Positions 20,085 through 49,131 of a stretch of DNA of 64,000 bases are shown piece by piece. Made by a program: the position numbers and the translations under genes. A model generated the notes under the pieces. The model was not told where the DNA came from and searched no databases. It was given only the letters and a program-made list of their open reading frames with translations. Every line of letters begins with the position of its first letter. The first letter of the stretch is position 1. This DNA is from Sipunculus nudus (Eukaryota > Annelida > Sipuncula > Golfingiida > Sipunculidae), in NCBI GenBank assembly GCA_026874595.1, contig CM049319.1, positions 627,501-691,500 of the forward strand, read 5' to 3'.

Positions 20085-20145
20085 TTGAATATATTACTAA
20101 GGATACACAATTAAACACGCCAATACAGTCTGCACTGATATTGGG
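20085..20145 (+). repeat. Monomer type e (61 bp), reference copy
   Basis: Head TTGAATATATTACTAAGG, then the diagnostic ATACACAATTAAACACGCC, and tail CTGCACTGATATTGGG. It has 21 G/C of 61. It closes nearly all units. A one-base-deleted 60-bp form with CCAATCAGTCTG makes 18 of the 19 units of 341 bp. A T-to-G variant (CTGAGATTGGG) marks unit ends at 324, 1630, 2936 and later near 7077, 9750, 23780 and 45330. Confidence 0.9.
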
Positions 20146-22356
20146 TTGAATATATTATTAAGGCAACACATTAAAACACGCAACTACTGTCTACAATGTA
20201 ATGATTTTGGATATATAACTAAGGTCACACAACAGAACACGTCACTACGGTCTATCGAAGACGACACAACAAAACACGCCTCTACAGTCTTAACTGTTAT
20301 GATGTTGGATATATTATTAAGGCCACACATTGAAACACGCCAATACAGTCTGCACTGATATGGGGTTAAATATATTACTAAGGCCACACATTAAAACACG
20401 CCAATACAGTCTGCACTGTTACGGTGTTGAATATATTACTAAGGATACACAATTAAACACGCCAATACAGTCTGCACTGATATTGGGTTGAATATATTAT
20501 TAAGGCCACACATTAAAACACGCAACTACTGTCTACAATGTAATGATTTTGGATATATAACTAAGGTCACACAACAGAACACGCCACTACGGTCTATCGA
20601 AGACGACACAACAAAACACGCCTCTACAGTCTTAACTGTTATGATGTTGGATATATTATTAAGGCCACACATTGAAACACGCCAATACAGTCTGCACTGA
20701 TATTGGGTTAAATATATTACTAAGGCCACACATTAAAACACGCCAATACAGTCTGCACTGTTACGGTGTTGAATATATTACTAAGGATACACAATTAAAC
20801 ACGCCAATACAGTCTGCACTGATATTGGGTTGAATATATTATTAAGGCCACACATTAAAACACGCAACTACTGTCTACAATGTAATGATTTTGGATATAT
20901 AACTAAGGTCACACAACAGAACACGTCACTACGGTCTATCGAAGACGACACAACAAAACACGCCTCTACAGTCTTAACTGTTATGATGTTGGATATATTA
21001 TTAAGGCCACACATTGAAACACGCCAATACAGTCTGCACTGTTACGGTGTTGAATATATTACTAAGGATACACAATTAAACACGCCAATACAGTCTGCAC
21101 TGATATTGGGTTGAATATATTATTAAGGCCACACATTAAAACACGCAACTACTGTCTACAATGTAATGATTTTGGATATATAACTAAGGTCACACAACAG
21201 AACACGTCACTACGGTCTATCGAAGACGACACAACAAAACACGCCTCTAAAGTCTTAACTGTTATGATGTTGGATATATTATTAAGGCCACACATTGAAA
21301 CACGCCAATACAGTCTGCACTGTTACGGTGTTGAATATATTACTAAGGATACACAATTAAACACGCCAATACAGTCTGCACTGATATTGGGTTGAATATA
21401 TTATTAAGGCCACACATTAAAACACGCAACTACTGTCTACAATGTAATGATTTTGGATATATAACTAAGGTCACACAACAGAACACGTCACTACGGTCTA
21501 TCGAAGACGACACAACAAAACACGCCTCTACAGTCTTAACTGTTATGATGTTGGATATATTATTAAGGCCACACATTGAAACACGCCAATACAGTCTGCA
21601 CTGATATGGGGTTAAATATATTACTAAGGCCACACATTAAAACACGCCAATACAGTCTGCACTGTTACGGTGTTGAATATATTACTAAGGATACACAATT
21701 AAACACGCCAATACAGTCTGCACTGATATTGGGTTGAATATATTATTAAGGCCACACATTAAAACACGCAACTACTGTCTACAATGTAATGATTTTGGAT
21801 ATATAACTAAGGTCACACAACAGAACACCTCACTACGGTCTATCGAAGACGACACAACAAAACACACCTCTACAGTCTTAACTGTTATGATGTTGGATAT
21901 ATTATTAAGGCCACACATTGAAACACGCCAATACAGTCTGCACTGTTACGGTGTTGAATATATTACTAAGGATACACAATTAAACACGCCAATACAGTCT
22001 GCACTGATATTGGGTTGAATATATTATTAAGGCCACACATTAAAACACGCAACTACTGTCTACAATGTAATGATTTTGGATATATAACTAAGGTCACACA
22101 ACAGAACACGTCACTACGGTCTATCGAAGACGACACAACAAAACACGCCTCTACAGTCTTAACTGTTATGATGTTGGATATATTATTAAGGCCACACATT
22201 GAAACACGCCAATACAGTCTGCACTGATATGGGGTTAAATATATTACTAAGGCCACACATTAAAACACGCCAATACAGTCTGCACTGTTACGGTGTTGAA
22301 TATATTACTAAGGATACACAATTAAACACGCCAATACAGTCTGCACTGATATTGGG

Positions 22357-25300
22357 TTGAATATATTATTAAGGCCACACATTAAAACACGCAACTACTG
22401 TCTACAATGTAATGATTTTGGATATATAACTAAGGTCACACAACAGAACACGTCACTACGGTCTATCGAAGACGACACAACAAAACACGCCTCTACAGTC
22501 TTAACTGTTATGATGTTGGATATATTATTAAGGCCACACATTGAAACACGCCAATACAGTCTGCACTGATATGGGGTTAAATATACTACTAAGGCCACAC
22601 ATTAAAACACGCCAATACAGTCTGCACTGTTACGGTGTTGAATATATTACTAAGGATACACAATTAAACACGCCAATACAGTCTGCACTGATATTGGGTT
22701 GAATATATTATTAAGGCCACACATTAAAACACGCCAATACAGTCTGCACTGTTACGGTGTTGAATATATTACTAAGGATACACAATTAAACACGCCAATA
22801 CAGTCTGCACTGATATTGGGTTGAATATATTATTAAGGCCACACATTAAAACACGCAACTACTGTCTACAATGAAATGATTTTGGATATATAACTAAGGT
22901 CACACAAAGGAACACGTCACTACGGTCTATCGAAGACGACACAACAAAACACGCCTCTACAGTCTTAACTGTTATGATGTTGGATATATTATTAAGGCCA
23001 CACATTGAAACACGCCAATACAGTCTGCACTGATATGGGGTTAAATATATTACTAAGGCCACACATTAAAACACGCCAATACAGTCTGCACTGTTACGGT
23101 GTTGAATATATTACTAAGGATACACAATTAAACACGCCAATACAGTCTGCACTGATATTGGGTTGAATATATTATTAAGGCCACACATTAAAACACGCAA
23201 CTACTGTCTACAATGTAATGATTTTGGATATATAACTAAGGTCACACAACAGAACACGTCACTACGGTCTATCGAAGACGACACAACAAAACACGCCTCT
23301 ACAGTCTTAACTGTTATGATGTTGGATATATTATTAAGGCCACACATTGAAACACGCCAATACAGTCTGCACTGTTACGGTGTTGAATATATTACTAAGG
23401 ATACACAAATAAACACGCCAATACAGTCTGCTCTGATATTGGGTTGAATATATTATTAAGGCCACACATTAAAACACGCAACTACTGTCTACAATGTAAT
23501 GATTTTGGATATATAACTAAGATCACACAACAGAACACGTCACTACGGTCTATCGAAGACGACACAACAAAACACGCCTCTACAGTCTTAACTGTTATGA
23601 TGTTGGATATATTATTAAGGCCACACATTGAAACACGCCAATACAGTCTGCACTGATATGGGGTTAAATATATTACTAAGGCCACACATTAAAACACGCC
23701 AATACAGTCTGCACTGTTACGGTGTTGAATATATTACTAAGGATACACAATTAAACACGCCAATACAGTCTGCACTGAGATTGGGTTGAATATATTATTA
23801 AGGCCACACATTAAAACACGCAACTACTGTCTACAATGTAATGATTTTGGATATATAACTAAGGTCACACAACAGAACACGTCACTACGGTCTATCGAAG
23901 ACGACACAACAAAACACCCCTCTACAGTCTTAACTGTTATGATGTTGGATATATTATTAAGGCCACACATTGAAACACGCCAATACAGTCTGCACTGATA
24001 TGGGGTTAAATATATTACTAAGGCCACACATTAAAACACGCCAATACAGTCTGCACTGTTACGGTGTTGAATATATTACTAAGGATACACAATTAAACAC
24101 GCCAATACAGTCTGCACTGATATTGGGTTGAATATATTATTAAGGCCCACATTAAAACACGCAACTACTGTCTACAATGTAATGATTTTGGATATATAAC
24201 TAAGGTCACACAACAGAACACGTCACTACGGTCTATCGAAGACGACACAACAAAACACGCCTCTACAGTCTTAACTGTTATGATGTTGGACATATTATTA
24301 AGGCCACACATTGAAACACGCCAATACAGTCTGCACTGTTACGGTGTTGAATATATTACTAAGGATACACAATTAAACACGCCAATACAGTCTGCACTGA
24401 TATTGGGTTGAATATATTATTAAGGCCACACATTAAAACACGCAACTACTGTCTACAATGTAATGATTTTGGATATATAACTAAGGTCACACAACAGAAC
24501 ACGTCACTACGGTCTATCGAAGACGACACAACAAAACACGCCTCTACAGTCTTAACTGTTATGATGTTGGATATATTATTAAGGCCACACATTGAAACAC
24601 GCCAATACAGTCTGCACTGATATGGGGTTAAATATATTACTAAGGCCACACATGAAAAAAAGCCAATACAGTCTGCACTGTTACGGTGTTGAATATATTA
24701 CTAAGGAAACACAATTAAACACGCCAATCAGTCTGCACTGATATTGGGTTGAATATATTATTAAGGCCACACATTAAAACACGCAACTACTGTCTACAAT
24801 GTAATGATTTTGGATATATAACTAAGGTCACACAACAGAACACGTCACTACGGTCTATCGAAGACGACACAACAAAACACGCCTCTACAGTCTTAACTGT
24901 TATGATGTTGGATATATTATTAAGGCGACACATTGAAACACGCCAATACAGTCTGCACTGATATGGGGTTAAATATATTACTAAGGCCACACATTAAAAC
25001 ACGCCAATACAGTCTGCACTGTTACGGTGTTGAATATATTACTAAGGATACACAATTAAACACGCCAATACAGTCTGCACTGATATTGGGTTGAATATAT
25101 TATTAAGGCCACACATTAAAACACGCAACTACTGTCTACAATGTAATGATTTTGGATATATAACTAAGGTCACACAACAGAACACGTCACTACGGTCTAT
25201 CGAAGACGACACAACAAAACACGCCTCTACAGTCTTAACTGTTATGATGTTGGATATATTATTAAGGCCACACATTGAAACACGCCAATACAGTCTGCAC

Positions 25301-27581
25301 TGTTACGGTGTTGAATATATTACTAAGGATACACAATTAAACACGCCAATACAGTCTGCACTGATATTGGGTTGAATATATTATTAAGGCCACACATTAA
25401 AACACGCAACTACTGTCTACAATGTAATGATTTTGGATATATAACTAAGGTCACACAACAGAACACGTCACTACGGTCTATCGAAGACGACACAACAAAA
25501 CACGCCTCTACAGTCTTAACTGTTATGATGTTGGATATATTATTAAGGCCACACATTGAAACACGCCAATACAGTCTGCACTGATATGGGGTTAAATATA
25601 TTACTAAGGCCACACATTAAAACACGCCAATACAGTCTGCACTGTTACGGTGTTGAATATATTACTAAGGATACACAATTAAACACGCCAATACAGTCTG
25701 CACTGATATTGGGTTGAATATATTATTAAGGCCACACATTAAAACACGCAACTACTGTCTACAATGTAATGATTTTGGATATATAACTAAGGTCACACAA
25801 CAGAACACGTCACTACGGTCTATCGAAGACGACACAACAAAACACGCCTCTACAGTCTTAACTGTTATGATGTTGGATATATTATTAAGGCCACACATTG
25901 AAACACGCCAATTCAGTCTGCACTGATATGGGGTTTAATATATTACTAAGGCCACACATTAAAACACGCCAATACAGTCTGAACTGTTACGGTGTTGAAT
26001 ATATTACTAAGGATACACAATTAAACACGCCAATACAGTCTGCACTGATATTGGGTTGAATATATTATTAAGGCCACACATTAAAACACGCAACTACTGT
26101 CTACAATGTAATGATTTTGGATATATAACTAAGGTCACACAACAGAACACGTCACTACGGTCTATCGAAGACGACACAACAAAACACGCCTCTACAGTCT
26201 TAACTGTTATGATGTTGGATATATTATTAAGGCCACACATTGAAACACGCCAATACAGTCTGCACTGTTACGGTGTTGAATATATTACTAAGGATACACA
26301 ATTAAACACGCCAATACAGTCTGCACTGATATTGGGTTGAATATATTATTAAGGCCACACATTAAAACACGCAACTACTGTCTACAATGTAATGATTTTG
26401 GATATATAACTAAGGTCACACAACAGAACACGTCACTACGGTCTATCGAAGACGACACAACAAAACACGCCTCTACAGTCTTAACTGTTATGATGTTGGA
26501 TATATTATTAAGGCCACACATTGAAACACGCCAATACAGTCTGCACTGTTACGGTGTTGAATATATTACTAAGGATACACAATTAAACACGCCAATACAG
26601 TCTGCACTGATATTGGGTTGAATATATTATTAAGGCCACACATTAAAACACGCAACTACTGTCTACAATGTAATGATTTTGGATATATAACTAAGGTCAC
26701 ACAACAGAACACGTCACTACGGTCTATCGAAGACGACACAACAAAACACGCCTCTACAGTCTTAACTGTTATGATGTTGGATATATTATTAAGGCCACAC
26801 ATTGAAACACGCCAATACAGTCTGCACTGATATGGGGTTAAATATATTACTAAGGCCACACATTAAAACACGCCAATACAGTCTGCACTGTTACGGTGTT
26901 GAATATATTACTAAGGATACACAATTAAACACGCCAATCAGTCTGCACTGATACTGGGTTGAATATATTATTAAGGCCACACATTAAAACACGCAACTAC
27001 TATCTACAATGTAATGATTTTGGATATATAACTAAGGTCACACAACAGAACACGTCACTACGGTCTATCGAAGACGACACAACAAAACACGCCTCTACAG
27101 TCTTAACTGTTATGATGTTGGATATATTATTAAGGCCACACATTGAAACACGCCAATACAGTCTGCACTGATATGGGGTTAAATATATTACTAAGGCCAC
27201 ACATTAAAACACGCCAATACAGTATGCACTGTTACGGTGTTGAATATATTACTAAGGATACACAATTAAACACGCCAATACAGTCTGCACTGATATTGGG
27301 TTGAATATATTATTAAGGCCACACATTAAAACACGCAACTACTGTCTACAATGTAATGATTTTGGATATATAACTAAGGTCACACAACAGAACACGTCAC
27401 TACGGTCTATCGAAGACGACACAACAAAACACGCCTCTACAGTCTTAACTGTTATGATGTTGGATATATTATTAAGGCCACACATTGAAACACGCCAATA
27501 CAGTCTGCACTGTTACGGTGTTGAATATATTACTAAGGATACACAATTAAACACGCCAATACAGTCTGCACTGATATTGGG
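22357..27581 (+). repeat. Units 22357-27581, left duplicate
   Basis: Units start at 22357 (464), 22821, 23163, 23444, 23786, 24128 (280), 24408 (341), 24749, 25091, 25372, 25714, 26056, 26337, 26618 (341), 26959 and 27301. Markers: C at 22586, A at 23522 (AAGATCAC), G at 24927 (AAGGCGACA), T at 25913, GAACTGTTAC at 25981 and GATACTGGG near 26951. The unit after the 464-bp unit keeps CAATGAAATG but lacks AAAATACGC. Bases 22908-22909 differ from the right-hand duplicate. Confidence 0.93.
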
Positions 27582-28264
27582 TTGAATATATTATTAAGGC
27601 CACACATTAAAACACGCAACTACTGTCTACAATGTAATGATTTTGGATATATAACTAAGGTCACACAACAGAACACGTCACTACGGTCTATCGAAGACGA
27701 CACAACAAAACACGCCTCTACAGTCTTAACTGTTATGATGTTGGATATATTATTAAGGCCACACATTGAAACACGCCAATACAGTCTGCACTGATATGGG
27801 GTTAAATATATTACTAAGGCCACACATTAAAACACGCCAATACAGTCTGCACTGTTACGGTGTTGAATATATTACTAAGGATACACAATTGAACACGCCA
27901 ATCAGTCTGCACTGATATTGGGTTGAATATATTATTAAGGCCACACATTAAAACACGCAACTACTATCTACAATGTAATGATTTTGGATATATAACTAAG
28001 GTCACACAACAGAACACGTCACTACGGTCTATCGAAGAAGACACAACAAAACACGCCTCTACAGTCTTAACTGTTATGATGTTGGATATATTATTAAGGC
28101 CACACATTGAAACACGCCAATACAGTCTGCACTGATATGGGGTTAAATATATTACTAAGGCCACACATTAAAACACGCCAATACAGTATGCACTGTTACG
28201 GTGTTGAATATATTACTAAGGATACACAATTAAACACGCCAATACAGTCTGCACTGATATTGGG
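27582..28264 (+). repeat. Units 341-342, second copy of a two-unit block
   Basis: Units start at 27582 and 27923. They share TTGAACACGCCAATCAG, CTATCT and the AAGAAGAC variant with the units at 12588 and 12929, and differ from the neighbouring 26618/26959 pair. This is the point where the left duplicate stops matching the right one, which instead has a 281-bp and then a 464-bp unit at 49132 and 49413. Confidence 0.9.
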
Positions 28265-29411
28265 TTGAATATATTATTAAGGCCACACATTAAAACACGC
28301 AACTACTGTCTACAATGTAATGATTTTGGATATATAACTAAGGTCACACAACAGAACACGTCACTACGGTCTATCGAAGACGACACAACAAAACACGCCT
28401 CTACAGTCTTAACTGTTATGATGTTGGATATATTATTAAGGCCACACATTGAAACACGCCAATACAGTCTGCACTGATATGGGGTTAAATATATTACTAA
28501 GGCCACACATTAAAACACGCCAATACAGTCTGCACTGTTACGGTGTTGAATATATTACTAAGGATACACAATTAAACACGCCAATACAGTCTGCACTGAT
28601 ATTGGGTTGAATATATTATTAAGGCCACACATTAAAACACGCCAATACAGTCTGCACTGTTACGGTGTTGAATATATTACTAAGGATACACAATTAAACA
28701 CGCCAATACAGTCTGCACTGATATTGGGTTGAATATATTATTAAGGCCACACATTAAAATACGCAACTACTGTCTACAATGAAATGATTTTGGATATATA
28801 ACTAAGGTCACACAACAGAACACGTCACTACGGTCTATCGAAGACGACACAACAAAACACGCCTCTACAGTCTTAACTGTTATGATGTTGGATATATTAT
28901 TAAGGCCACACATTGAAACACGCCAATACAGTCTGCACTGATATGGGGTTAAATATATTACTAAGGCCACACATTAAAACACGCCAATACAGTCTGCACT
29001 GTTACGGTGTTGAATATATTACTAAGGATACACAATTAAACACGCCAATACAGTCTGCACTGATATTGGGTTGAATATATTATTAAGGCCACACATTAAA
29101 ACACGCAACTACTGTCTACAATGTAATGATTTTGGATATATAACTAAGGTCACACAACAGAACACGTCACTACGGTCTATCGAAGACGACACAACAAAAC
29201 ACGCCTCTACAGTCTTAACTGTTATGATGTTGGATATATTATTAAGGCCACACATTGAAACACGCCAATACAGTCTGCACTGATATGGGGTTAAATATAT
29301 TACTAAGGCCACACATTAAAACACGCCAATACAGTCTGCACTGTTACGGTGTTGAATATATTACTAAGGATACACAATTAAACACGCCAATCAGTCTGCA
29401 CTGATATTGGG
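28265..29411 (+). repeat. Units 464-342-341, repeat of 13833-14979
   Basis: Units start at 28265, 28729 and 29071 and match the block at 13833 at offset 14,432, including the AAAATACGC/CAATGAAATG marker. This begins a partial third copy of the duplicated segment. Confidence 0.92.
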
Positions 29412-31743
29412 TTGAATATATTATTAAGGCCACACATTAAAACACGCAACTACTGTCTACAATGTAATGATTTTGGATATATAACTAAGGTCACACAACA
29501 GAACACGTCACTACGGTCTATCGAAGACGACACAACAAAACACGCCTCTACAGTCTTAACTGTTATGATGTTGGATATATTATTAAGGCCACACATTGAA
29601 ACACGCCAATACAGTCTGCACTGATATGGGGTTAAATATATTACTAAGGCCACACATTAAAACACGCCAATACAGTATGCACTGTTACGGTGTTGAATAT
29701 ATTACTAAGGATACACAATTAAACACGCCAATACAGTCTGCACTGATATTGGGTTGAATATATTATTAAGGCCACACATTAAAACACGCAACTACTGTCT
29801 ACAATGTAATGATTTTGGATATATAACTAAGGTCACACAACAGAACACGTCACTACGGTCTATCGAAGACGACACAACAAAACACGCCTCTACAGTCTTA
29901 ACTGTTATGATGTTGGATATATTATTAAGGCCACACATTGAAACACGCCAATACAGTCTGCACTGTTACGGTGTTGAATATATTACTAAGGATACACAAT
30001 TAAACACGCCAATACAGTCTGCACTGATATTGGGTTGAATATATTATTAAGGCCACACATTAAAACACGCAACTACTGTCTACAATGTAATGATTTTGGA
30101 TATATAACTAAGGTCACACAACAGAACACGTCACTACGGTCTATCGAAGACGACACAACAAAACACGCCTCTACAGTCTTAACTGTTATGATGTTGGATA
30201 TATTATTAAGGCCACACATTGAAACACGCCAATACAGTCTGCACTGTTACGGTGTTGAATATATTACTAAGGATACACAATTAAACACGCCAATACAGTC
30301 TGCACTGATATTGGGTTGAATATATTATTAAGGCCACACATTAAAACACGCAACTACTGTCTACAATGTAATGATTTTGGATATATAACTAAGGTCACAC
30401 AACAGAACACGTCACTACGGTCTATCGAAGACGACACAACAAAACACGCCTCTACAGTCTTAACTGTTATGATGTTGGATATATTATTAAGGCCACACAT
30501 TGAAACACGCCAATACAGTCTGCACTGTTACGGTGTTGAATATATTACTAAGGATACACAATTAAACACGCCAATACAGTCTGCACTGATATTGGGTTGA
30601 ATATATTATTAAGGCCACACATTAAAACACGCAACTACTGTCTACAATGTAATGATTTTGGATATATAACTAAGGTCACACAACAGAACACGTCACTACG
30701 GTCTATCGAAGACGACACAACAAAACACGCCTCTACAGTCTTAACTGTTATGATGTTGGATATATTATTAAGGCCACACATTGAAACACGCCAATACAGT
30801 CTGCACTGATATGGGGTTAAATATATTACTAAGGCCACACATTAAAACACGCCAATACAGTCTGCACTGTTACGGTGTTGAATATATTACTAAGGATACA
30901 CAATTAAACACGCCAATACAGTCTGCACTGATATTGGGTTGAATATATTATTAAGGCCACACATTAAAACACGCCAATACAGTCTGCACTGTTACGGTGT
31001 TGAATATATTACTAAGGATACACAATTAAACACGCCAATACAGTCTGCACTGATATTGGGTTGAATATATTATTAAGGCCACACATTAAAATACGCAACT
31101 ACTGTCTACAATGAAATGATTTTGGATATATAACTAAGGTCACACAACAGAACACGTCACTACGGTCTATCGAAGACGACACAACAAAACACGCCTCTAC
31201 AGTCTTAACTGTTATGATGTTGGATATATTATTAAGGCCACACATTGAAACACGCCAATACAGTCTGCACTGATATGGGGTTAAATATATTACTAAGGCC
31301 ACACATTAAAACACGCCAATACAGTCTGCACTGTTACGGTGTTGAATATATTACTAAGGATACACAATTAAACACGCCAATACAGTCTGCACTGATATTG
31401 GGTTGAATATATTATTAAGGCCACACATTAAAACACGCAACTACTGTCTACAATGTAATGATTTTGGATATATAACTAAGGTCACACAACAGAACACGTC
31501 ACTACGGTCTATCGAAGACGACACAACAAAACACGCCTCTACAGTCTTAACTGTTATGATGTTGGATATATTATTAAGGCCACACATTGAAACACGCCAA
31601 TACAGTCTGCACTGATATGGGGTTAAATATATTACTAAGGCCACACATTAAAACACGCCAATACAGTCTGCACTGTTACGGTGTTGAATATATTACTAAG
31701 GATACACAATTAAACACGCCAATCAGTCTGCACTGATATTGGG
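29412..31743 (+). repeat. 2,332-bp super-unit, tandem copy 1
   Basis: Units start at 29412, 29754, 30035, 30316, 30597 (464), 31061 and 31403 (341). The order is identical to 14980-17311 at offset 14,432. It is the first of four consecutive related super-units running to 38861. Confidence 0.93.
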
Positions 31744-34075
31744 TTGAATATATTATTAAGGCCACACATTAAAACACGCAACTACTGTCTACAATGTAAT
31801 GATTTTGGATATATAACTAAGGTCACACAACAGAACACGTCACTACGGTCTATCGAAGACGACACAACAAAACACGCCTCTACAGTCTTAACTGTTATGA
31901 TGTTGGATATATTATTAAGGCCACACATTGAAACACGCCAATACAGTCTGCACTGATATGGGGTTAAATATATTACTAAGGCCACACATTAAAACACGCC
32001 AATACAGTATGCACTGTTACGGTGTTGAATATATTACTAAGGATACACAATTAAACACGCCAATACAGTCTGCACTGATATTGGGTTGAATATATTATTA
32101 AGGCCACACATTAAAACACGCAACTACTGTCTACAATGTAATGATTTTGGATATATAACTAAGGTCACACAACAGAACACGTCACTACGGTCTATCGAAG
32201 ACGACACAACAAAACACGCCTCTACAGTCTTAACTGTTATGATGTTGGATATATTATTAAGGCCACACATTGAAACACGCCAATACAGTCTGCACTGTTA
32301 CGGTGTTGAATATATTACTAAGGATACACAATTAAACACGCCAATACAGTCTGCACTGATATTGGGTTGAATATATTATTAAGGCCACACATTAAAACAC
32401 GCAACTACTGTCTACAATGTAATGATTTTGGATATATAACTAAGGTCACACAACAGAACACGTCACTACGGTCTATCGAAGACGACACAACAAAACACGC
32501 CTCTACAGTCTTAACTGTTATGATGTTGGATATATTATTAAGGCCACACATTGAAACACGCCAATACAGTCTGCACTGTTACGGTGTTGAATATATTACT
32601 AAGGATACACAATTAAACACGCCAATACAGTCTGCACTGATATTGGGTTGAATATATTATTAAGGCCACACATTAAAACACGCAACTACTGTCTACAATG
32701 TAATGATTTTGGATATATAACTAAGGTCACACAACAGAACACGTCACTACGGTCTATCGAAGACGACACAACAAAACACGCCTCTACAGTCTTAACTGTT
32801 ATGATGTTGGATATATTATTAAGGCCACACATTGAAACACGCCAATACAGTCTGCACTGTTACGGTGTTGAATATATTACTAAGGATACACAATTAAACA
32901 CGCCAATACAGTCTGCACTGATATTGGGTTGAATATATTATTAAGGCCACACATTAAAACACGCAACTACTGTCTACAATGTAATGATTTTGGATATATA
33001 ACTAAGGTCACACAACAGAACACGTCACTACGGTCTATCGAAGACGACACAACAAAACACGCCTCTACAGTCTTAACTGTTATGATGTTGGATATATTAT
33101 TAAGGCCACACATTGAAACACGCCAATACAGTCTGCACTGATATGGGGTTAAATATATTACTACGGCCACACATTAAAACACGCCAATACAGTCTGCACT
33201 GTTACGGTGTTGAATATATTACTAAGGATACACAATTAAACACGCCAATACAGTCTGCACTGATATTGGGTTGAATATATTATTAAGGCCACACATTAAA
33301 ACACGCCAATACAGTCTGCACTGTTACGGTGTTGAATATATTACTAAGGATACACAATTAAACACGCCAATACAGTCTGCACTGATATTGGGTTGAATAT
33401 ATTATTAAGGCCACACATTAAAATACGCAACTACTGTCTACAATGAAATGATTTTGGATATATAACTAAGGTCACACAACAGAACACGTCACTACGGTCT
33501 ATCGAAGACGACACAACAAAACACGCCTCTACAGTCTTAACTGTTATGATGTTGGATATATTATTAAGGCCACACATTGAAACACGCCAATACAGTCTGC
33601 ACTGATATGGGGTTAAATATATTACTAAGGCCACACATTAAAACACGCCAATACAGTCTGCACTGTTACGGTGTTGAATATATTACTAAGGATACACAAT
33701 TAAACACGCCAATACAGTCTGCACTGATATTGGGTTGAATATATTATTAAGGCCACACATTAAAACACGCAACTACTGTCTACAATGTAATGATTTTGGA
33801 TATATAACTAAGGTCACACAACAGAACACGTCACTACGGTCTATCGAAGACGACACAACAAAACACGCCTCTACAGTCTTAACTGTTATGATGTTGGATA
33901 TATTATTAAGGCCACACATTGAAACACGCCAATACAGTCTGCACTGATATGGGGTTAAATATATTACTAAGGCCACACATTAAAACACGCCAATACAGTC
34001 TGCACTGTTACGGTGTTGAATATATTACTAAGGATACACAATTAAACACGCCAATCAGTCTGCACTGATATTGGG
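31744..34075 (+). repeat. 2,332-bp super-unit, tandem copy 2
   Basis: Units start at 31744, 32086, 32367, 32648, 32929 (464), 33393 and 33735 (341). It is the same as the preceding copy apart from a private A-to-C at 33164 (CTACGGCC) in d of the 464-bp unit. There is no counterpart at this position in the segment at 14.1-18.9 kb, so this copy is the net gain of one super-unit. Confidence 0.93.
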
Positions 34076-36529
34076 TTGAATATATTATTAAGGCCACACA
34101 TTAAAACACGCAACTACTGTCTACAATGTAATGATTTTGGATATATAACTAAGGTCACACAACAGAACACGTCACTACGGTCTATCGAAGACGACACAAC
34201 AAAACACGCCTCTACAGTCTTAACTGTTATGATGTTGGATATATTATTAAGGCCACACATTGAAACACGCCAATACAGTCTGCACTGATATGGGGTTAAA
34301 TATATTACTAAGGCCACACATTAAAACACGCCAATACAGTATGCACTGTTACGGTGTTGAATATATTACTAAGGATACACAATTAAACACGCCAATACAG
34401 TCTGCACTGATATTGGGTTGAATATATTATTAAGGCCACACATTAAAACACGCAACTACTGTCTACAATGTAATGATTTTGGATATATAACTAAGGTCAC
34501 ACAACAGAACACGTCACTACGGTCTATCGAAGACGACACAACAAAACACGCCTCTACAGTCTTAACTGTTATGATGTTGGATATATTATTAAGGCCACAC
34601 ATTGAAACACGCCAATACAGTCTGCACTGTTACGGTGTTGAATATATTACTAAGGATACACAATTAAACACGCCAATACAGTCTGCACTGATATTGGGTT
34701 GAATATATTATTAAGGCCACACATTAAAACACGCAACTACTGTCTACAATGTAATGATTTTGGATATATAACTAAGGTCACACAACAGAACACGTCACTA
34801 CGGTCTATCGAAGACGACACAACAAAACACGCCTCTACAGTCTTAACTGTTATGATGTTGGATATATTATTAAGGCCACACATTGAAACACGCCAATACA
34901 GTCTGCACTGATATGAGGTTAAATATATTACTAAGGCCACACATTAAAACACGCCAATACAGTCTGCACTGTTACGGTGTTGAATATATTACTAAGGATA
35001 CACAATTAAACACGCCAATACAGTCTGCACTGATATTGGGTTGAATATATTATTAAGGCCACACATTAAAACACGCAACTACTGTCTACAATGTAATGAT
35101 TTTGGATATATAACTAAGGTCACACAACAGAACACGTCACTACGGTCTATCGAAGACGACACAACAAAACACGCCTCTACAGTCTTAACTGTTATGATGT
35201 TGGATATATTATTAAGGCCACACATTGAAACACGCCAATACAGTCTGCACTGATATGGGGTTAAATATATTACTAAGGCCACACATTAAAACACGCCAAT
35301 ACAGTCTGCACTGTTACGGTGTTGAATATATTACTAAGGATACACAATTAAACACGCCAATACAGTCTGCACTGATATTGGGTTGAATATATTATTAAGG
35401 CCACACATTAAAACACGCAACTACTGTCTACAATGTAATGATTTTGGATATATAACTAAGGTCACACAACAGAACACGTCACTACGGTCTATCGAAGACG
35501 ACACAACAAAACACGCCTCTACAGTCTTAACTGTTATGATGTTGGATATATTATTAAGGCCACACATTGAAACACGCCAATACAGTCTGCACTGTTACGG
35601 TGTTGAATATATTACTAAGGATACACAATTAAACACGCCAATACAGTCTGCACTGATATTGGGTTGAATATATTACTAAGGATACACAATTAAACACGCC
35701 AATACAGTCTGCACTGATATTGGGTTGAATATATTATTAAGGCCACACATTAAAACACGCCAATACAGTCTGCACTGTTACGGTGTTGAATATATTACTA
35801 AGGATACACAATTAAACACGCCAATACAGTCTGCACTGATATTGGGTTGAATATATTATTAAGGCCACACATTAAAATACGCAACTACTGTCTACAATGA
35901 AATGATTTTGGATATATAACTAAGGTCACACAACAGAACACGTCACTACGGTCTATCGAAGACGACACAACAAAACACGCCTCTACAGTCTTAACTGTTA
36001 TGATGTTGGATATATTATTAAGGCCACACATTGAAACACGCCAATACAGTCTGCACTGATATGGGGTTAAATATATTACTAAGGCCACACATTAAAACAC
36101 GCCAATACAGTCTGCACTGTTACGGTGTTGAATATATTACTAAGGATACACAATTAAACACGCCAATACAGTCTGCACTGATATTGGGTTGAATATATTA
36201 TTAAGGCCACACATTAAAACACGCAACTACTGTCTACAATGTAATGATTTTGGATATATAACTAAGGTCACACAACAGAACACGTCACTACGGTCTATCG
36301 AAGACGACACAACAAAACACGCCTCTACAGTCTTAACTGTTATGATGTTGGATATATTATTAAGGCCACACATTGAAACACGCCAATACAGTCTGCACTG
36401 ATATGGGGTTAAATATATTACTAAGGCCACACATTAAAACACGCCAATACAGTCTGCACTGTTACGGTGTTGAATATATTACTAAGGATACACAATTAAA
36501 CACGCCAATCAGTCTGCACTGATATTGGG
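34076..36529 (+). repeat. Chimeric 2,454-bp super-unit
   Basis: Units start at 34076 (342), 34418 (281), 34699 (342, with the GAGGTTAAAT marker), 35041 (342), 35383 (281 plus three extra monomers, 464 in total), 35847 (342) and 36189 (341). The first 1,588 bp match 17312-18899. After 35664 the sequence matches 14114 onward. The super-unit is therefore a join between two different places of the duplicated segment. Confidence 0.9.
35664..35846 (+). repeat. Three extra monomers e - a/d - e at a crossover junction
   Basis: The 281-bp unit at 35383 ends with e at 35603-35663, then a second e follows directly at 35664-35724. An a/d hybrid (35725-35785) and a third e (35786-35846) come next. Elsewhere e is followed by a or an a-headed monomer. 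The e-e join is a one-monomer register slip, and the two possible parents share TTGAATATATTA exactly at this point. Confidence 0.9.
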
Positions 36530-38861
36530 TTGAATATATTATTAAGGCCACACATTAAAACACGCAACTACTGTCTACAATGTAATGATTTTGGATATAT
36601 AACTAAGGTCACACAACAGAACACGTCACTACGGTCTATCGAAGACGACACAACAAAACACGCCTCTACAGTCTTAACTGTTATGATGTTGGATATATTA
36701 TTAAGGCCACACATTGAAACACGCCAATACAGTCTGCACTGATATGGGGTTAAATATATTACTAAGGCCACACATTAAAACACGCCAATACAGTATGCAC
36801 TGTTACGGTGTTGAATATATTACTAAGGATACACAATTAAACACGCCAATACAGTCTGCACTGATATTGGGTTGAATATATTATTAAGGCCACACATTAA
36901 AACACGCAACTACTGTCTACAATGTAATGATTTTGGATATATAACTAAGGTCACACAACAGAACACGTCACTACGGTCTATCGAAGACGACACAACAAAA
37001 CACGCCTCTACAGTCTTAACTGTTATGATGTTGGATATATTATTAAGGCCACACATTGAAACACGCCAATACAGTCTGCACTGTTACGGTGTTGAATATA
37101 TTACTAAGGATACACAATTAAACACGCCAATACAGTCTGCACTGATATTGGGTTGAATATATTATTAAGGCCACACATTAAAACACGCAACTACTGTCTA
37201 CAATGTAATGATTTTGGATATATAACTAAGGTCACACAACAGAACACGTCACTACGGTCTATCGAAGACGACACAACAAAACACGCCTCTACAGTCTTAA
37301 CTGTTATGATGTTGGATATATTATTAAGGCCACACATTGAAACACGCCAATACAGTCTGCACTGTTACGGTGTTGAATATATTACTAAGGATACACAATT
37401 AAACACGCCAATACAGTCTGCACTGATATTGGGTTGAATATATTATTAAGGCCACACATTAAAACACGCAACTACTGTCTACAATGTAATGATTTTGGAT
37501 ATATAACTAAGGTCACACAACAGAACACGTCACTACGGTCTATCGAAGACGACACAACAAAACACGCCTCTACAGTCTTAACTGTTATGATGTTGGATAT
37601 ATTATTAAGGCCACACATTGAAACACGCCAATACAGTCTGCACTGTTACGGTGTTGAATATATTACTAAGGATACACAATTAAACACGCCAATACAGTCT
37701 GCACTGATATTGGGTTGAATATATTATTAAGGCCACACATTAAAACACGCAACTACTGTCTACAATGTAATGATTTTGGATATATAACTAAGGTCACACA
37801 ACAGAACACGTCACTACGGTCTATCGAAGACGACACAACAAAACACGCCTCTACAGTCTTAACTGTTATGATGTTGGATATATTATTAAGGCCACACATT
37901 GAAACACGCCAATACAGTCTGCACTGATATGGGGTTAAATATATTACTAAGGCCACACATTAAAACACGCCAATACAGTCTGCACTGTTACGGTGTTGAA
38001 TATATTACTAAGGATACACAATTAAACACGCCAATACAGTCTGCACTGATATTGGGTTGAATATATTATTAAGGCCACACATTAAAACACGCCAATACAG
38101 TCTGCACTGTTACGGTGTTGAATATATTACTAAGGATACACAATTAAACACGCCAATACAGTCTGCACTGATATTGGGTTGAATATATTATTAAGGCCAC
38201 ACATTAAAATACGCAACTACTGTCTACAATGAAATGATTTTGGATATATAACTAAGGTCACACAACAGAACACGTCACTACGGTCTATCGAAGACGACAC
38301 AACAAAACACGCCTCTACAGTCTTAACTGTTATGATGTTGGATATATTATTAAGGCCACACATTGAAACACGCCAATACAGTCTGCACTGATATGGGGTT
38401 AAATATATTACTAAGGCCACACATTAAAACACGCCAATACAGTCTGCACTGTTACGGTGTTGAATATATTACTAAGGATACACAATTAAACACGCCAATA
38501 CAGTCTGCACTGATATTGGGTTGAATATATTATTAAGGCCACACATTAAAACACGCAACTACTGTCTACAATGTAATGATTTTGGATATATAACTAAGGT
38601 CACACAACAGAACACGTCACTACGGTCTATCGAAGACGACACAACAAAACACGCCTCTACAGTCTTAACTGTTATGATGTTGGATATATTATTAAGGCCA
38701 CACATTGAAACACGCCAATACAGTCTGCACTGATATGGGGTTAAATATATTACTAAGGCCACACATTAAAACACGCCAATACAGTCTGCACTGTTACGGT
38801 GTTGAATATATTACTAAGGATACACAATTAAACACGCCAATCAGTCTGCACTGATATTGGG
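36530..38861 (+). repeat. 2,332-bp super-unit, tandem copy 4
   Basis: Units start at 36530, 36872, 37153, 37434, 37715 (464), 38179 and 38521 (341). It corresponds to 14980-17311 at offset 21,550 and lies inside the right-hand copy of the large duplication. Confidence 0.93.
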
Positions 38862-41800
38862 TTGAATATATTATTAAGGCCACACATTAAAACACGCAAC
38901 TACTGTCTACAATGTAATGATTTTGGATATATAACTAAGGTCACACAACAGAACACGTCACTACGGTCTATCGAAGACGACACAACAAAACACGCCTCTA
39001 CAGTCTTAACTGTTATGATGTTGGATATATTATTAAGGCCACACATTGAAACACGCCAATACAGTCTGCACTGATATGGGGTTAAATATATTACTAAGGC
39101 CACACATTAAAACACGCCAATACAGTATGCACTGTTACGGTGTTGAATATATTACTAAGGATACACAATTAAACACGCCAATACAGTCTGCACTGATATT
39201 GGGTTGAATATATTATTAAGGCCACACATTAAAACACGCAACTACTGTCTACAATGTAATGATTTTGGATATATAACTAAGGTCACACAACAGAACACGT
39301 CACTACGGTCTATCGAAGACGACACAACAAAACACGCCTCTACAGTCTTAACTGTTATGATGTTGGATATATTATTAAGGCCACACATTGAAACACGCCA
39401 ATACAGTCTGCACTGTTACGGTGTTGAATATATTACTAAGGATACACAATTAAACACGCCAATACAGTCTGCACTGATATTGGGTTGAATATATTATTAA
39501 GGCCACACATTAAAACACGCAACTACTGTCTACAATGTAATGATTTTGGATATATAACTAAGGTCACACAACAGAACACGTCACTACGGTCTATCGAAGA
39601 CGACACAACAAAACACGCCTCTACAGTCTTAACTGTTATGATGTTGGATATATTATTAAGGCCACACATTGAAACACGCCAATACAGTCTGCACTGATAT
39701 GAGGTTAAATATATTACTAAGGCCACACATTAAAACACGCCAATACAGTCTGCACTGTTACGGTGTTGAATATATTACTAAGGATACACAATTAAACACG
39801 CCAATACAGTCTGCACTGATATTGGGTTGAATATATTATTAAGGCCACACATTAAAACACGCAACTACTGTCTACAATGTAATGATTTTGGATATATAAC
39901 TAAGGTCACACAACAGAACACGTCACTACGGTCTATCGAAGACGACACAACAAAACACGCCTCTACAGTCTTAACTGTTATGATGTTGGATATATTATTA
40001 AGGCCACACATTGAAACACGCCAATACAGTCTGCACTGATATGGGGTTAAATATATTACTAAGGCCACACATTAAAACACGCCAATACAGTCTGCACTGT
40101 TACGGTGTTGAATATATTACTAAGGATACACAATTAAACACGCCAATACAGTCTGCACTGATATTGGGTTGAATATATTATTAAGGCCACACATTAAAAC
40201 ACGCAACTACTGTCTACAATGTAATGATTTTGGATATATAACTAAGGTCACACAACAGAACACGTCACTACGGTCTATCGAAGACGACACAACAAAACAC
40301 GCCTCTACAGTCTTAACTGTTATGATGTTGGATATATTATTAAGGCCACACATTGAAACACGCCAATACAGTCTGCACTGTTACGGTGTTGAATATATTA
40401 CTAAGGATACACAATTAAACACGCCAATACAGTCTGCACTGATATTGGGTTGAATATATTATTAAGGCCACACATTAAAACACGCAACTACTGTCTACAA
40501 TGTAATGATTTTGGATATATAACTAAGGTCACACAACAGAACACGTCACTACGGTCTATCGAAGACGACACAACAAAACACGCCTCTACAGTCTTAACTG
40601 TTATGATGTTGGATATATTATTAAGGCCACACATTGAAACACGCCAATACAGTCTGCACTGATATGGGGTTAAATATATTACTAAGGCCACACATTAAAA
40701 CACGCCAATACAGTATGCACTGTTACGGTGTTGAATATATTACTAAGGATACACAATTAAACACGCCAATACAGTCTGCACTGATATTGGGTTGAATATA
40801 TTATTAAGGCCACACATTAAAACACGCAACTACTGTCTACAATGTAATGATTTTGGATATATAACTAAGGTCACACAACAGAACACGTCACTACGGTCTA
40901 TCGAAGACGACACAACAAAACACGCCTCTACAGTCTTAACTGTTATGATGTTGGATATATTATTAAGGCCACACATTGAAACACGCCAATACAGTCTGCA
41001 CTGTTACGGTGTTGAATATATTACTAAGGATACACAATTAAACACGCCAATACAGTCTGCACTGATATTGGGTTGAATATATTATTACGGCCACACATTA
41101 AAACACGCAACTACTGTCTACAATGTAATGATTTTGGATATATAACTAAGGTCACACAACAGAACACGTCACTACGGTCTATCGAAGACGACACAACAAA
41201 ACACGCCTCTACAGTCTTAACTGTTATGATGTTGGATATATTATTAAGGCCACACATTGAAACACGCCAATACAGTCTGCACTGTTACGGTGTTGAATAT
41301 ATTACTAAGGATACACAATTAAACACGCCAATACAGTCTGCACTGATATTGGGTTGAATATATTATTAAGGCCACACATTAAAACACGCAACTACTGTCT
41401 ACAATGTAATGATTTTGGATATATAACTAAGGTCACACAACAGAACACGTCACTACGGTCTATCGAAGACGACACAACAAAACACGCCTCTACAGTCTTA
41501 ACTGTTATGATGTTGGATATATTATTAAGGCCACACATTGAAACACGCCAATACAGTCTGCACTGATATGGGGTTAAATATATTACTAAGGCCACACATT
41601 AAAACACGCCAATACAGTCTGCACTGTTACGGTGTTGAATATATTACTAAGGATACACAATTAAACACGCCAATACAGTCTGCACTGATATTGGGTTGAA
41701 TATATTATTAAGGCAACACATTAAAACACGCAACTACTGTCTACAATGTAATGATTTTGGATATATAACTAAGGTCACACAACAGAACACGTCACTACGG

Positions 41801-43906
41801 TCTATCGAAGACGACACAACAAAACACGCCTCTACAGTCTTAACTGTTATGATGTTGGATATATTATTAAGGCCACACATTGAAACACGCCAATACAGTC
41901 TGCACTGATATGGGGTTAAATATATTACTAAGGCCACACATTAAAACACGCCAATACAGTCTGCACTGTTACGGTGTTGAATATATTACTAAGGATACAC
42001 AATTAAACACGCCAATACAGTCTGCACTGATATTGGGTTGAATATATTATTAAGGCCACACATTAAAACACGCAACTACTGTCTACAATGTAATGATTTT
42101 GGATATATAACTAAGGTCACACAACAGAACACGCCACTACGGTCTATCGAAGACGACACAACAAAACACGCCTCTACAGTCTTAACTGTTATGATGTTGG
42201 ATATATTATTAAGGCCACACATTGAAACACGCCAATACAGTCTGCACTGATATTGGGTTAAATATATTACTAAGGCCACACATTAAAACACGCCAATACA
42301 GTCTGCACTGTTACGGTGTTGAATATATTACTAAGGATACACAATTAAACACGCCAATACAGTCTGCACTGATATTGGGTTGAATATATTATTAAGGCCA
42401 CACATTAAAACACGCAACTACTGTCTACAATGTAATGATTTTGGATATATAACTAAGGTCACACAACAGAACACGTCACTACGGTCTATCGAAGACGACA
42501 CAACAAAACACGCCTCTACAGTCTTAACTGTTATGATGTTGGATATATTATTAAGGCCACACATTGAAACACGCCAATACAGTCTGCACTGTTACGGTGT
42601 TGAATATATTACTAAGGATACACAATTAAACACGCCAATACAGTCTGCACTGATATTGGGTTGAATATATTATTAAGGCCACACATTAAAACACGCAACT
42701 ACTGTCTACAATGTAATGATTTTGGATATATAACTAAGGTCACACAACAGAACACGTCACTACGGTCTATCGAAGACGACACAACAAAACACGCCTCTAA
42801 AGTCTTAACTGTTATGATGTTGGATATATTATTAAGGCCACACATTGAAACACGCCAATACAGTCTGCACTGTTACGGTGTTGAATATATTACTAAGGAT
42901 ACACAATTAAACACGCCAATACAGTCTGCACTGATATTGGGTTGAATATATTATTAAGGCCACACATTAAAACACGCAACTACTGTCTACAATGTAATGA
43001 TTTTGGATATATAACTAAGGTCACACAACAGAACACGTCACTACGGTCTATCGAAGACGACACAACAAAACACGCCTCTACAGTCTTAACTGTTATGATG
43101 TTGGATATATTATTAAGGCCACACATTGAAACACGCCAATACAGTCTGCACTGATATGGGGTTAAATATATTACTAAGGCCACACATTAAAACACGCCAA
43201 TACAGTCTGCACTGTTACGGTGTTGAATATATTACTAAGGATACACAATTAAACACGCCAATACAGTCTGCACTGATATTGGGTTGAATATATTATTAAG
43301 GCCACACATTAAAACACGCAACTACTGTCTACAATGTAATGATTTTGGATATATAACTAAGGTCACACAACAGAACACCTCACTACGGTCTATCGAAGAC
43401 GACACAACAAAACACACCTCTACAGTCTTAACTGTTATGATGTTGGATATATTATTAAGGCCACACATTGAAACACGCCAATACAGTCTGCACTGTTACG
43501 GTGTTGAATATATTACTAAGGATACACAATTAAACACGCCAATACAGTCTGCACTGATATTGGGTTGAATATATTATTAAGGCCACACATTAAAACACGC
43601 AACTACTGTCTACAATGTAATGATTTTGGATATATAACTAAGGTCACACAACAGAACACGTCACTACGGTCTATCGAAGACGACACAACAAAACACGCCT
43701 CTACAGTCTTAACTGTTATGATGTTGGATATATTATTAAGGCCACACATTGAAACACGCCAATACAGTCTGCACTGATATGGGGTTAAATATATTACTAA
43801 GGCCACACATTAAAACACGCCAATACAGTCTGCACTGTTACGGTGTTGAATATATTACTAAGGATACACAATTAAACACGCCAATACAGTCTGCACTGAT
43901 ATTGGG
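38862..43906 (+). repeat. Units 38862-43906, right duplicate of 17312-22356
   Basis: Units start at 38862, 39204, 39485, 39827, 40169, 40450, 40792, 41073, 41354, 41696, 42038, 42380, 42661, 42942, 43284 and 43565. All rare markers of the left duplicate are present at +21,550: 39702, 41088, 41715, 42134, 42800, 43379 and 43416. Confidence 0.93.
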
Positions 43907-46900
43907 TTGAATATATTATTAAGGCCACACATTAAAACACGCAACTACTGTCTACAATGTAATGATTTTGGATATATAACTAAGGTCACACAACAGAACA
44001 CGTCACTACGGTCTATCGAAGACGACACAACAAAACACGCCTCTACAGTCTTAACTGTTATGATGTTGGATATATTATTAAGGCCACACATTGAAACACG
44101 CCAATACAGTCTGCACTGATATGGGGTTAAATATACTACTAAGGCCACACATTAAAACACGCCAATACAGTCTGCACTGTTACGGTGTTGAATATATTAC
44201 TAAGGATACACAATTAAACACGCCAATACAGTCTGCACTGATATTGGGTTGAATATATTATTAAGGCCACACATTAAAACACGCCAATACAGTCTGCACT
44301 GTTACGGTGTTGAATATATTACTAAGGATACACAATTAAACACGCCAATACAGTCTGCACTGATATTGGGTTGAATATATTATTAAGGCCACACATTAAA
44401 ACACGCAACTACTGTCTACAATGAAATGATTTTGGATATATAACTAAGGTCACACAACAGAACACGTCACTACGGTCTATCGAAGACGACACAACAAAAC
44501 ACGCCTCTACAGTCTTAACTGTTATGATGTTGGATATATTATTAAGGCCACACATTGAAACACGCCAATACAGTCTGCACTGATATGGGGTTAAATATAT
44601 TACTAAGGCCACACATTAAAACACGCCAATACAGTCTGCACTGTTACGGTGTTGAATATATTACTAAGGATACACAATTAAACACGCCAATACAGTCTGC
44701 ACTGATATTGGGTTGAATATATTATTAAGGCCACACATTAAAACACGCAACTACTGTCTACAATGTAATGATTTTGGATATATAACTAAGGTCACACAAC
44801 AGAACACGTCACTACGGTCTATCGAAGACGACACAACAAAACACGCCTCTACAGTCTTAACTGTTATGATGTTGGATATATTATTAAGGCCACACATTGA
44901 AACACGCCAATACAGTCTGCACTGTTACGGTGTTGAATATATTACTAAGGATACACAAATAAACACGCCAATACAGTCTGCTCTGATATTGGGTTGAATA
45001 TATTATTAAGGCCACACATTAAAACACGCAACTACTGTCTACAATGTAATGATTTTGGATATATAACTAAGATCACACAACAGAACACGTCACTACGGTC
45101 TATCGAAGACGACACAACAAAACACGCCTCTACAGTCTTAACTGTTATGATGTTGGATATATTATTAAGGCCACACATTGAAACACGCCAATACAGTCTG
45201 CACTGATATGGGGTTAAATATATTACTAAGGCCACACATTAAAACACGCCAATACAGTCTGCACTGTTACGGTGTTGAATATATTACTAAGGATACACAA
45301 TTAAACACGCCAATACAGTCTGCACTGAGATTGGGTTGAATATATTATTAAGGCCACACATTAAAACACGCAACTACTGTCTACAATGTAATGATTTTGG
45401 ATATATAACTAAGGTCACACAACAGAACACGTCACTACGGTCTATCGAAGACGACACAACAAAACACCCCTCTACAGTCTTAACTGTTATGATGTTGGAT
45501 ATATTATTAAGGCCACACATTGAAACACGCCAATACAGTCTGCACTGATATGGGGTTAAATATATTACTAAGGCCACACATTAAAACACGCCAATACAGT
45601 CTGCACTGTTACGGTGTTGAATATATTACTAAGGATACACAATTAAACACGCCAATACAGTCTGCACTGATATTGGGTTGAATATATTATTAAGGCCCAC
45701 ATTAAAACACGCAACTACTGTCTACAATGTAATGATTTTGGATATATAACTAAGGTCACACAACAGAACACGTCACTACGGTCTATCGAAGACGACACAA
45801 CAAAACACGCCTCTACAGTCTTAACTGTTATGATGTTGGACATATTATTAAGGCCACACATTGAAACACGCCAATACAGTCTGCACTGTTACGGTGTTGA
45901 ATATATTACTAAGGATACACAATTAAACACGCCAATACAGTCTGCACTGATATTGGGTTGAATATATTATTAAGGCCACACATTAAAACACGCAACTACT
46001 GTCTACAATGTAATGATTTTGGATATATAACTAAGGTCACACAACAGAACACGTCACTACGGTCTATCGAAGACGACACAACAAAACACGCCTCTACAGT
46101 CTTAACTGTTATGATGTTGGATATATTATTAAGGCCACACATTGAAACACGCCAATACAGTCTGCACTGATATGGGGTTAAATATATTACTAAGGCCACA
46201 CATGAAAAAAAGCCAATACAGTCTGCACTGTTACGGTGTTGAATATATTACTAAGGAAACACAATTAAACACGCCAATCAGTCTGCACTGATATTGGGTT
46301 GAATATATTATTAAGGCCACACATTAAAACACGCAACTACTGTCTACAATGTAATGATTTTGGATATATAACTAAGGTCACACAACAGAACACGTCACTA
46401 CGGTCTATCGAAGACGACACAACAAAACACGCCTCTACAGTCTTAACTGTTATGATGTTGGATATATTATTAAGGCGACACATTGAAACACGCCAATACA
46501 GTCTGCACTGATATGGGGTTAAATATATTACTAAGGCCACACATTAAAACACGCCAATACAGTCTGCACTGTTACGGTGTTGAATATATTACTAAGGATA
46601 CACAATTAAACACGCCAATACAGTCTGCACTGATATTGGGTTGAATATATTATTAAGGCCACACATTAAAACACGCAACTACTGTCTACAATGTAATGAT
46701 TTTGGATATATAACTAAGGTCACACAACAGAACACGTCACTACGGTCTATCGAAGACGACACAACAAAACACGCCTCTACAGTCTTAACTGTTATGATGT
46801 TGGATATATTATTAAGGCCACACATTGAAACACGCCAATACAGTCTGCACTGTTACGGTGTTGAATATATTACTAAGGATACACAATTAAACACGCCAAT

Positions 46901-49131
46901 ACAGTCTGCACTGATATTGGGTTGAATATATTATTAAGGCCACACATTAAAACACGCAACTACTGTCTACAATGTAATGATTTTGGATATATAACTAAGG
47001 TCACACAACAGAACACGTCACTACGGTCTATCGAAGACGACACAACAAAACACGCCTCTACAGTCTTAACTGTTATGATGTTGGATATATTATTAAGGCC
47101 ACACATTGAAACACGCCAATACAGTCTGCACTGATATGGGGTTAAATATATTACTAAGGCCACACATTAAAACACGCCAATACAGTCTGCACTGTTACGG
47201 TGTTGAATATATTACTAAGGATACACAATTAAACACGCCAATACAGTCTGCACTGATATTGGGTTGAATATATTATTAAGGCCACACATTAAAACACGCA
47301 ACTACTGTCTACAATGTAATGATTTTGGATATATAACTAAGGTCACACAACAGAACACGTCACTACGGTCTATCGAAGACGACACAACAAAACACGCCTC
47401 TACAGTCTTAACTGTTATGATGTTGGATATATTATTAAGGCCACACATTGAAACACGCCAATTCAGTCTGCACTGATATGGGGTTTAATATATTACTAAG
47501 GCCACACATTAAAACACGCCAATACAGTCTGAACTGTTACGGTGTTGAATATATTACTAAGGATACACAATTAAACACGCCAATACAGTCTGCACTGATA
47601 TTGGGTTGAATATATTATTAAGGCCACACATTAAAACACGCAACTACTGTCTACAATGTAATGATTTTGGATATATAACTAAGGTCACACAACAGAACAC
47701 GTCACTACGGTCTATCGAAGACGACACAACAAAACACGCCTCTACAGTCTTAACTGTTATGATGTTGGATATATTATTAAGGCCACACATTGAAACACGC
47801 CAATACAGTCTGCACTGTTACGGTGTTGAATATATTACTAAGGATACACAATTAAACACGCCAATACAGTCTGCACTGATATTGGGTTGAATATATTATT
47901 AAGGCCACACATTAAAACACGCAACTACTGTCTACAATGTAATGATTTTGGATATATAACTAAGGTCACACAACAGAACACGTCACTACGGTCTATCGAA
48001 GACGACACAACAAAACACGCCTCTACAGTCTTAACTGTTATGATGTTGGATATATTATTAAGGCCACACATTGAAACACGCCAATACAGTCTGCACTGTT
48101 ACGGTGTTGAATATATTACTAAGGATACACAATTAAACACGCCAATACAGTCTGCACTGATATTGGGTTGAATATATTATTAAGGCCACACATTAAAACA
48201 CGCAACTACTGTCTACAATGTAATGATTTTGGATATATAACTAAGGTCACACAACAGAACACGTCACTACGGTCTATCGAAGACGACACAACAAAACACG
48301 CCTCTACAGTCTTAACTGTTATGATGTTGGATATATTATTAAGGCCACACATTGAAACACGCCAATACAGTCTGCACTGATATGGGGTTAAATATATTAC
48401 TAAGGCCACACATTAAAACACGCCAATACAGTCTGCACTGTTACGGTGTTGAATATATTACTAAGGATACACAATTAAACACGCCAATCAGTCTGCACTG
48501 ATACTGGGTTGAATATATTATTAAGGCCACACATTAAAACACGCAACTACTATCTACAATGTAATGATTTTGGATATATAACTAAGGTCACACAACAGAA
48601 CACGTCACTACGGTCTATCGAAGACGACACAACAAAACACGCCTCTACAGTCTTAACTGTTATGATGTTGGATATATTATTAAGGCCACACATTGAAACA
48701 CGCCAATACAGTCTGCACTGATATGGGGTTAAATATATTACTAAGGCCACACATTAAAACACGCCAATACAGTATGCACTGTTACGGTGTTGAATATATT
48801 ACTAAGGATACACAATTAAACACGCCAATACAGTCTGCACTGATATTGGGTTGAATATATTATTAAGGCCACACATTAAAACACGCAACTACTGTCTACA
48901 ATGTAATGATTTTGGATATATAACTAAGGTCACACAACAGAACACGTCACTACGGTCTATCGAAGACGACACAACAAAACACGCCTCTACAGTCTTAACT
49001 GTTATGATGTTGGATATATTATTAAGGCCACACATTGAAACACGCCAATACAGTCTGCACTGTTACGGTGTTGAATATATTACTAAGGATACACAATTAA
49101 ACACGCCAATACAGTCTGCACTGATATTGGG
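43907..49131 (+). repeat. Units 43907-49131, right duplicate of 22357-27581
   Basis: Units start at 43907 (464), 44371, 44713, 44994, 45336, 45678 (280), 45958 (341), 46299, 46641, 46922, 47264, 47606, 47887, 48168 (341), 48509 and 48851. The A-run cluster near 46204-46211, GGCGACA at 46477 and GAACTGTTAC at 47531 match the left copy. At 44458-44459 it has the common bases CA where the left copy has AG. Confidence 0.93.

Follow-up and report, generated by a model that had tools for sequence, protein, structure and literature searches.

An e-e junction in a Sipunculus nudus satellite array as the probable seam of a recent 4,786-bp tandem duplication

Two copies of the same 61-bp monomer, here called e, stand side by side in a satellite array of the sipunculid Sipunculus nudus (contig CM049319.1 of assembly GCA_026874595.1, positions 627,501 to 691,500; this stretch of 64,000 nucleotides is the window referred to throughout, and all coordinates are counted from its first base). 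How did this order arise, and how large is the rearrangement that it records? The growth of satellite arrays is attributed to exchange or replication that is out of register. The seams of such events are usually hard to see, as the copies are either identical or already rearranged. In the case described here both the product and a paralog with the pre-event order survive, so that the displacement (4,786 bp), the phase and the shared tract (13 bp) can all be measured.

Nearly the whole window, positions 2-63652, is one tandem array according to Tandem Repeats Finder. We decomposed the sequence by dynamic programming into eight reference monomers, which gave 1,129 segments covering the entire window. 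In brief, a, c, d, e and f are monomers of 61 bp, p is a partial monomer of 37 bp, h is a hybrid of c and d, and E is e with a d-like tail, the form seen at the e-e join. Monomers e and d are identical at 52 of 61 positions. The monomers are organized as units named acdefp (99 in the window, 76 of 342 bp and 23 of 341 bp), ahefp (72, each of 281 bp) and acdedefp (12, each of 464 bp), besides which the window holds a handful of odd units that also end in p. With diverged monomers set in a fixed order and near-identical multi-monomer units, the array is a higher-order-repeat satellite. The 281-bp unit has the structure that a c by d exchange would be expected to produce. A two-base variant of f can be used as a lineage marker. 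It has nine copies in the window, eight of them in acdedefp units (8 of 12; unit starts 5431, 8104, 13951, 16283, 28383, 30715, 33047 and 37833) and one in the unit that harbors the e-e join, and it is found nowhere else.

The two e monomers occupy 35603-35663 and 35664-35724 on the plus strand, in the phase beginning TTGAATATATTA. They are identical at 61 of 61 positions, and the exact 61-bp period at the pair extends over 35602-35736. Among the 212 monomers of e type (e or E) in the window, the successor is f in 196 cases, d in 13, c in 2 and e in a single case; the 13 successions from e to d comprise 12 inside 464-bp units and one inside the unit with the join. The original prediction had described the e-e order as unique, and at one in 212 e-type monomers this holds for the window. 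Further e-e joins, which with unchanged flanking context would by its own terms have counted against it, were searched for across the window, and none were found.

In the phase beginning ACACA, the join takes the form of a hybrid monomer at 35623-35683 (plus strand), with the head of e and the last 8 bases of d. This hybrid is exactly 61 bp long, present as a single copy, and identical to e at 58 and to d at 55 of 61 positions. A normal e follows directly at 35684-35744. Decomposition and unit comparison place the join in a fusion unit of 464 bp, ahEedefp (35501-35964, plus strand). An ahefp unit of 281 bp supplied the left part and an acdedefp unit of 464 bp the right part, and it is the right part that carries the two-base f variant otherwise confined to the 464-bp units.

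The junction is taken from one assembled sequence, in which the copies of the duplication, the parents, the shared tract and the restored pre-event order described below can be read directly. It is also a single junction in a near-identical repeat array, which would fit an assembly artefact, and a chimeric read could have produced it. A misjoin in the assembly graph, however, would be expected to arise in long identical stretches and to create no new sequence. The junction creates 15 successive 31-mers (within 35646-35690) that are single copy in the window, and the join is in monomer phase. We thus consider an artefact or a chimeric read very improbable. A 29-base tag across the junction likewise occurs only once in the window.

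We did not find inverted repeats of 10 bases or more in 35400-35964. Of the open reading frames with 60 aa or more, ten overlap 34800-36800, among them a 94-aa frame (35383-35667) that spans the e-e join. Most of these frames recur along with the units of the array, and we take none of them as a gene.

The flanks of the join were traced by exact matching over all offsets within the window. On the left, 33165-35675 is identical to 16401-18911 over 2,511 bp, and this diagonal extends back to 29959 (corresponding to 13195) with a single difference, at 33164. On the right, 35663-44457 is identical to 14113-22907 over 8,795 bp, and the diagonal extends to 49343 (corresponding to 27793), which makes 13,681 bp in total; the only differences are at two adjacent bases (22908-22909 against 44458-44459). 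Base 33164 and the pair at 22908-22909 fall in clusters of single-copy 31-mers and therefore look like private changes acquired after copying. The right match starts and the left match ends in a tract common to both parents, the 13-bp GTTGAATATATTA at 35663-35675 (plus strand). Position 14113 belongs to the d at 14073-14133, the first d in the unit that starts at 13951. The offset is 16,764 to the left of the join and 21,550 to the right, which gives a register shift of 4,786 bp.

It had been proposed from the sequence that the odd order joins two parents that share sequence at the join, and that an exchange slipped by one monomer there also started a large duplication. The two-parent join stands, with a resolution of 13 bp; the size of the slip and the start of the large duplication do not. 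Both sources are those named in that proposal, although the left match, exact over 16401-18911, exceeds the interval 17312-18899 given there. The shared sequence is present as well, at 35663-35675, with 13 bp rather than 12.

The register shift equals the length of a tandem duplication. Copy 1 (30877-35662) and copy 2 (35663-40448), both on the plus strand, adjoin at the join and differ at one of 4,786 positions, with C at 33164 in copy 1 against A at 37950 in copy 2. When one copy is excised, a canonical ahefp unit reappears, and 29959-49343 healed in this way matches 13195-27793 over 14,599 bp with three differing bases. The latter stretch (plus strand), hereafter R1, is the unrearranged paralog with the pre-event order. 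The locus thus has what characterizes a tandem duplication, near-identical adjoining copies, a repeat phase that is kept at the seam, and an order that is restored by excision. The 13-mer is shared at 187 displacements, ranging from 30 to about 28,300 bp, and only those of 61 and 4,786 bp give complete duplications. The third best, 2,454 bp, has 10.4% mismatch (256 of 2,454) and was rejected as the size of the duplication, as was 7,118 bp (1,750 of 7,118 positions mismatched). Based on these observations, we suggest that a single recent tandem duplication of 4,786 bp probably left the e-e join as its seam. The displacement is accordingly 4,786 bp and not the one monomer first proposed; across the join, only the class of the monomer is shifted by one, e against d.

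The 61-bp displacement is the e-e pair itself. It is a complete duplication in its own right, and as the two e monomers are identical at all 61 positions, the pair could also have a two-step origin. First, an exchange of e with e in register would have given a unit ahedefp of 403 bp; replication slippage would then have doubled e, adding 61 bp. This we regard as improbable. No copy of the intermediate ahedefp is seen in the decomposed window, and two events are needed where one in-phase exchange between e and d yields the same sequence. A local slip of one monomer as the sole event was rejected, the ahedefp precursor being absent from the window.

For the 4,786-bp duplication, we propose the following course. 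Two near-identical stretches, on sister chromatids or homologs, would pair 4,786 bp out of register while the 61-bp monomers remained in phase. The e of a 281-bp unit would then face the first d of a 464-bp unit, and the strands would switch inside the 13-bp tract common to e and d. The recombination step would be either a crossover or a restart of replication at the displaced repeat, and a single event would have sufficed to make the join. Out-of-register homologous exchange and break-induced replication would leave the same seam, and the two would be inseparable from sequence. The reciprocal seam, with the head of d and the tail of e, gave 0 matches in the window. This is not decisive, since that product would be held by the sister or the homolog.

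To judge the shared tract, joins were simulated within the window. Random joins shared at least 13 bases in 1,090 of 193,468 draws (0.56%). When the joins were in phase and between unlike monomers, 27% of 158,415 draws did so. For in-phase joins of e and d (11,621 draws) the share was 63%, with exactly 13 bases in 23%. The 13-bp sharing points to phase-guided pairing and does not show that the joining was driven by microhomology. We rejected the tract as a special microhomology, its length being ordinary among the simulated in-phase e/d joins. Nor is the 13-mer a rare site, as it occurs 420 times in the window.

The join lies within a second large copy, R2 (28189-49343, plus strand), which contains the 4,786-bp duplication and matches R1 in near-perfect runs at offsets 14432, 16764 and 21550. 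In its first part, 28189-32578 is identical to 13757-18146. Between the offsets 14,432 and 16,764 there is a step of 2,332 bp. A block of seven units has just this length; it is made up of one 464-bp unit, three of the 342-bp type and three of 281 bp. In R1 there is one complete copy of the block (from 13951); in R2 there are two to the left of the join (28383 and 30715), and each complete block then runs into the first part of a further one. Seen along the window, it is present once at 13951-16282, as a tandem pair at 28383-33046, and headed by the fusion unit at 35501-37832. It forms a third level of repetition, over monomer and unit.

The join had also been thought to mark the start of the large duplication. 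It does not, since the homology to R1 runs kilobases further left (28189-32578, and 29959-35675 with one difference). This bears on another explanation, in which the join was left by a tandem duplication of 21,550 bp that starts here, or else by an exchange between a homolog carrying R1 and R2 and a homolog carrying R1 only. From 14113 the right flank does follow R1 over 13,681 bp, with two bases differing, but R1 homology continues to the left of the join. Sister exchange at this distance moreover predicts a match over the whole displaced length. Such a match is not found: 35663-57212 and 14113-35662 differ at 5,757 of 21,550 positions, and the near-perfect match ends at 49343. The version with two haplotypes also requires a prior copy of R1. 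We consider this explanation, in both versions, highly unlikely.

The left flank likewise speaks to gene conversion, in which a short tract of a 464-bp unit would have been overwritten by a neighbouring 281-bp unit. When the fusion unit is compared with the unit at 13951, 12 sites differ, all of them in positions 95-162, and this distribution is tract-like. To the left of a short conversion tract the sequence would return to the first diagonal. Instead, identity at the 21,550 offset falls leftward: it is 0.76 in the 400-bp bin at 35000, 0.62 in that at 34600 and 0.30 in that at 34200. At the 16,764 offset, every bin from 30200 to 35000 has an identity of 1.00 after rounding. A short conversion tract was rejected on these grounds, and is exceedingly unlikely.

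A further reading concerns R2 as a whole. All of it (28189-49343) could stem from one episode of break-induced replication with several backward jumps of the template, which we find unlikely, if still conceivable. Both the additional block of 2,332 bp and the duplication of 4,786 bp would belong to that episode, and the e-e seam would be one of the jump points rather than the trace of a separate, later crossover. The ages of the steps cannot be separated; with one differing site in 4,786 and three differing bases in 14,599, there are too few differences to tell whether the 4,786-bp event or the larger duplication came first.

The window was also scanned for other irregular joins, each 400-bp stretch being tested for an ungapped match elsewhere in the window with fewer than 6 mismatches. 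This left 1,911 of 63,601 stretches unmatched. They fall into five zones, around 3190, 35628, 52.2-52.95 kb, 58.8 kb and 62.0 kb. With stretches of 800 bp, 5,145 of 63,201 were unmatched, in thirteen zones. Single-copy 31-mers form 28 clusters, of which 22 have the length of a point change and six do not (3190, 3416, 35646, 52545, 52931 and 61985). Other odd joins are thus present in the window, and the e-e join is not unique as a kind. Among the nine sites listed with their exact flanks, it has the longest pair of mutually overlapping flanks. For comparison, an aa join at 52548 has an overlap of 8 bp and flanks of 673 and 394 bp. In that region, 52487-52608 (unit aahefp) consists of a and then a monomer with the head of c and the body of a, and the exact matches overlap by 8 bp.

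Some odd joins recur two or three times and are not single copy (57830/60144, 58843/61157/62942 and 58220/60534/62319). At 57775-57877 and 60089-60191 the join does not keep the monomer phase: e is interrupted after TTATT, and the sequence resumes inside c. This 103-bp piece has two copies, and was therefore probably copied after it arose. The left flank of the copy at 57775-57877 (57069-57830) matches 18153-18914. The e-e join departs from this source within a few bases of the same break, with 57827 as the counterpart of 35675. A shortened monomer of 38 bp at 62000-62037, 23 bp under 61, has the head of c and the tail of d and is crossed by single-copy 31-mers. The region 3061-3622 holds two consecutive odd units that are singletons, acefp followed by adefp. 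Hybrid-looking monomers are seen at 3183 (head of d, body of e) and 3403 (c-like middle, tail of d).

Searches for known elements gave no hits. We found no RNA families in 34000-38000 at E values up to 1, and no tRNA in the 64-kb window. One exact 25-mer had no match in bacterial and archaeal contigs or in viral contigs, and similarity searches gave no match for 35501-35964 in phages or for 13951-14756 in plasmids. A text search of the literature for six monomer strings found no publication containing any of them, and among the matches listed for literature on 61-bp repeats, none was recognised as this array.

The process that we propose is in itself textbook and an ordinary event; it is this case that is unusually clean. 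Unequal exchange as a model of satellite evolution reportedly goes back to Smith in 1976. As outlined in a later account (PMC8997354), exchange between tandem repeats that are out of register produces duplications and reciprocal deletions, and higher-order repeats come about likewise. The e-e join is the same in kind, and what allows its seam to be narrowed down to 13 bp is the survival of a paralog that retains the pre-event order. Two sources (PMC8997354, PMC11034957) describe how out-of-register break-induced replication, restarting behind the fork, duplicates arrays. That model would predict the same seam at this locus and should leave no reciprocal product. For yeast rDNA, expansion by break-induced replication is favoured (PMC8997354), and centromeric arrays expand and contract in cultured cells (PMC11034957); both are background with no direct bearing on this organism.

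Two human repeats offer a comparison of structure. The VNTR at Xp22.33 also has a 61-bp period, and its higher-order repeats, of 1.6 and 2.5 kb in an array of 18 kb, are irregular as well (PMC2588610); the period alone is compared, and we claim no relation between the two arrays. The hybrid monomers of human alpha satellite described with CentromereArchitect (PMC8336445) combine, like the hybrid at the e-e join, the prefix of one monomer with the suffix of another. Unlike alpha satellite, the array described here is built from a 61-bp monomer family, and the likeness drawn here is one of build.
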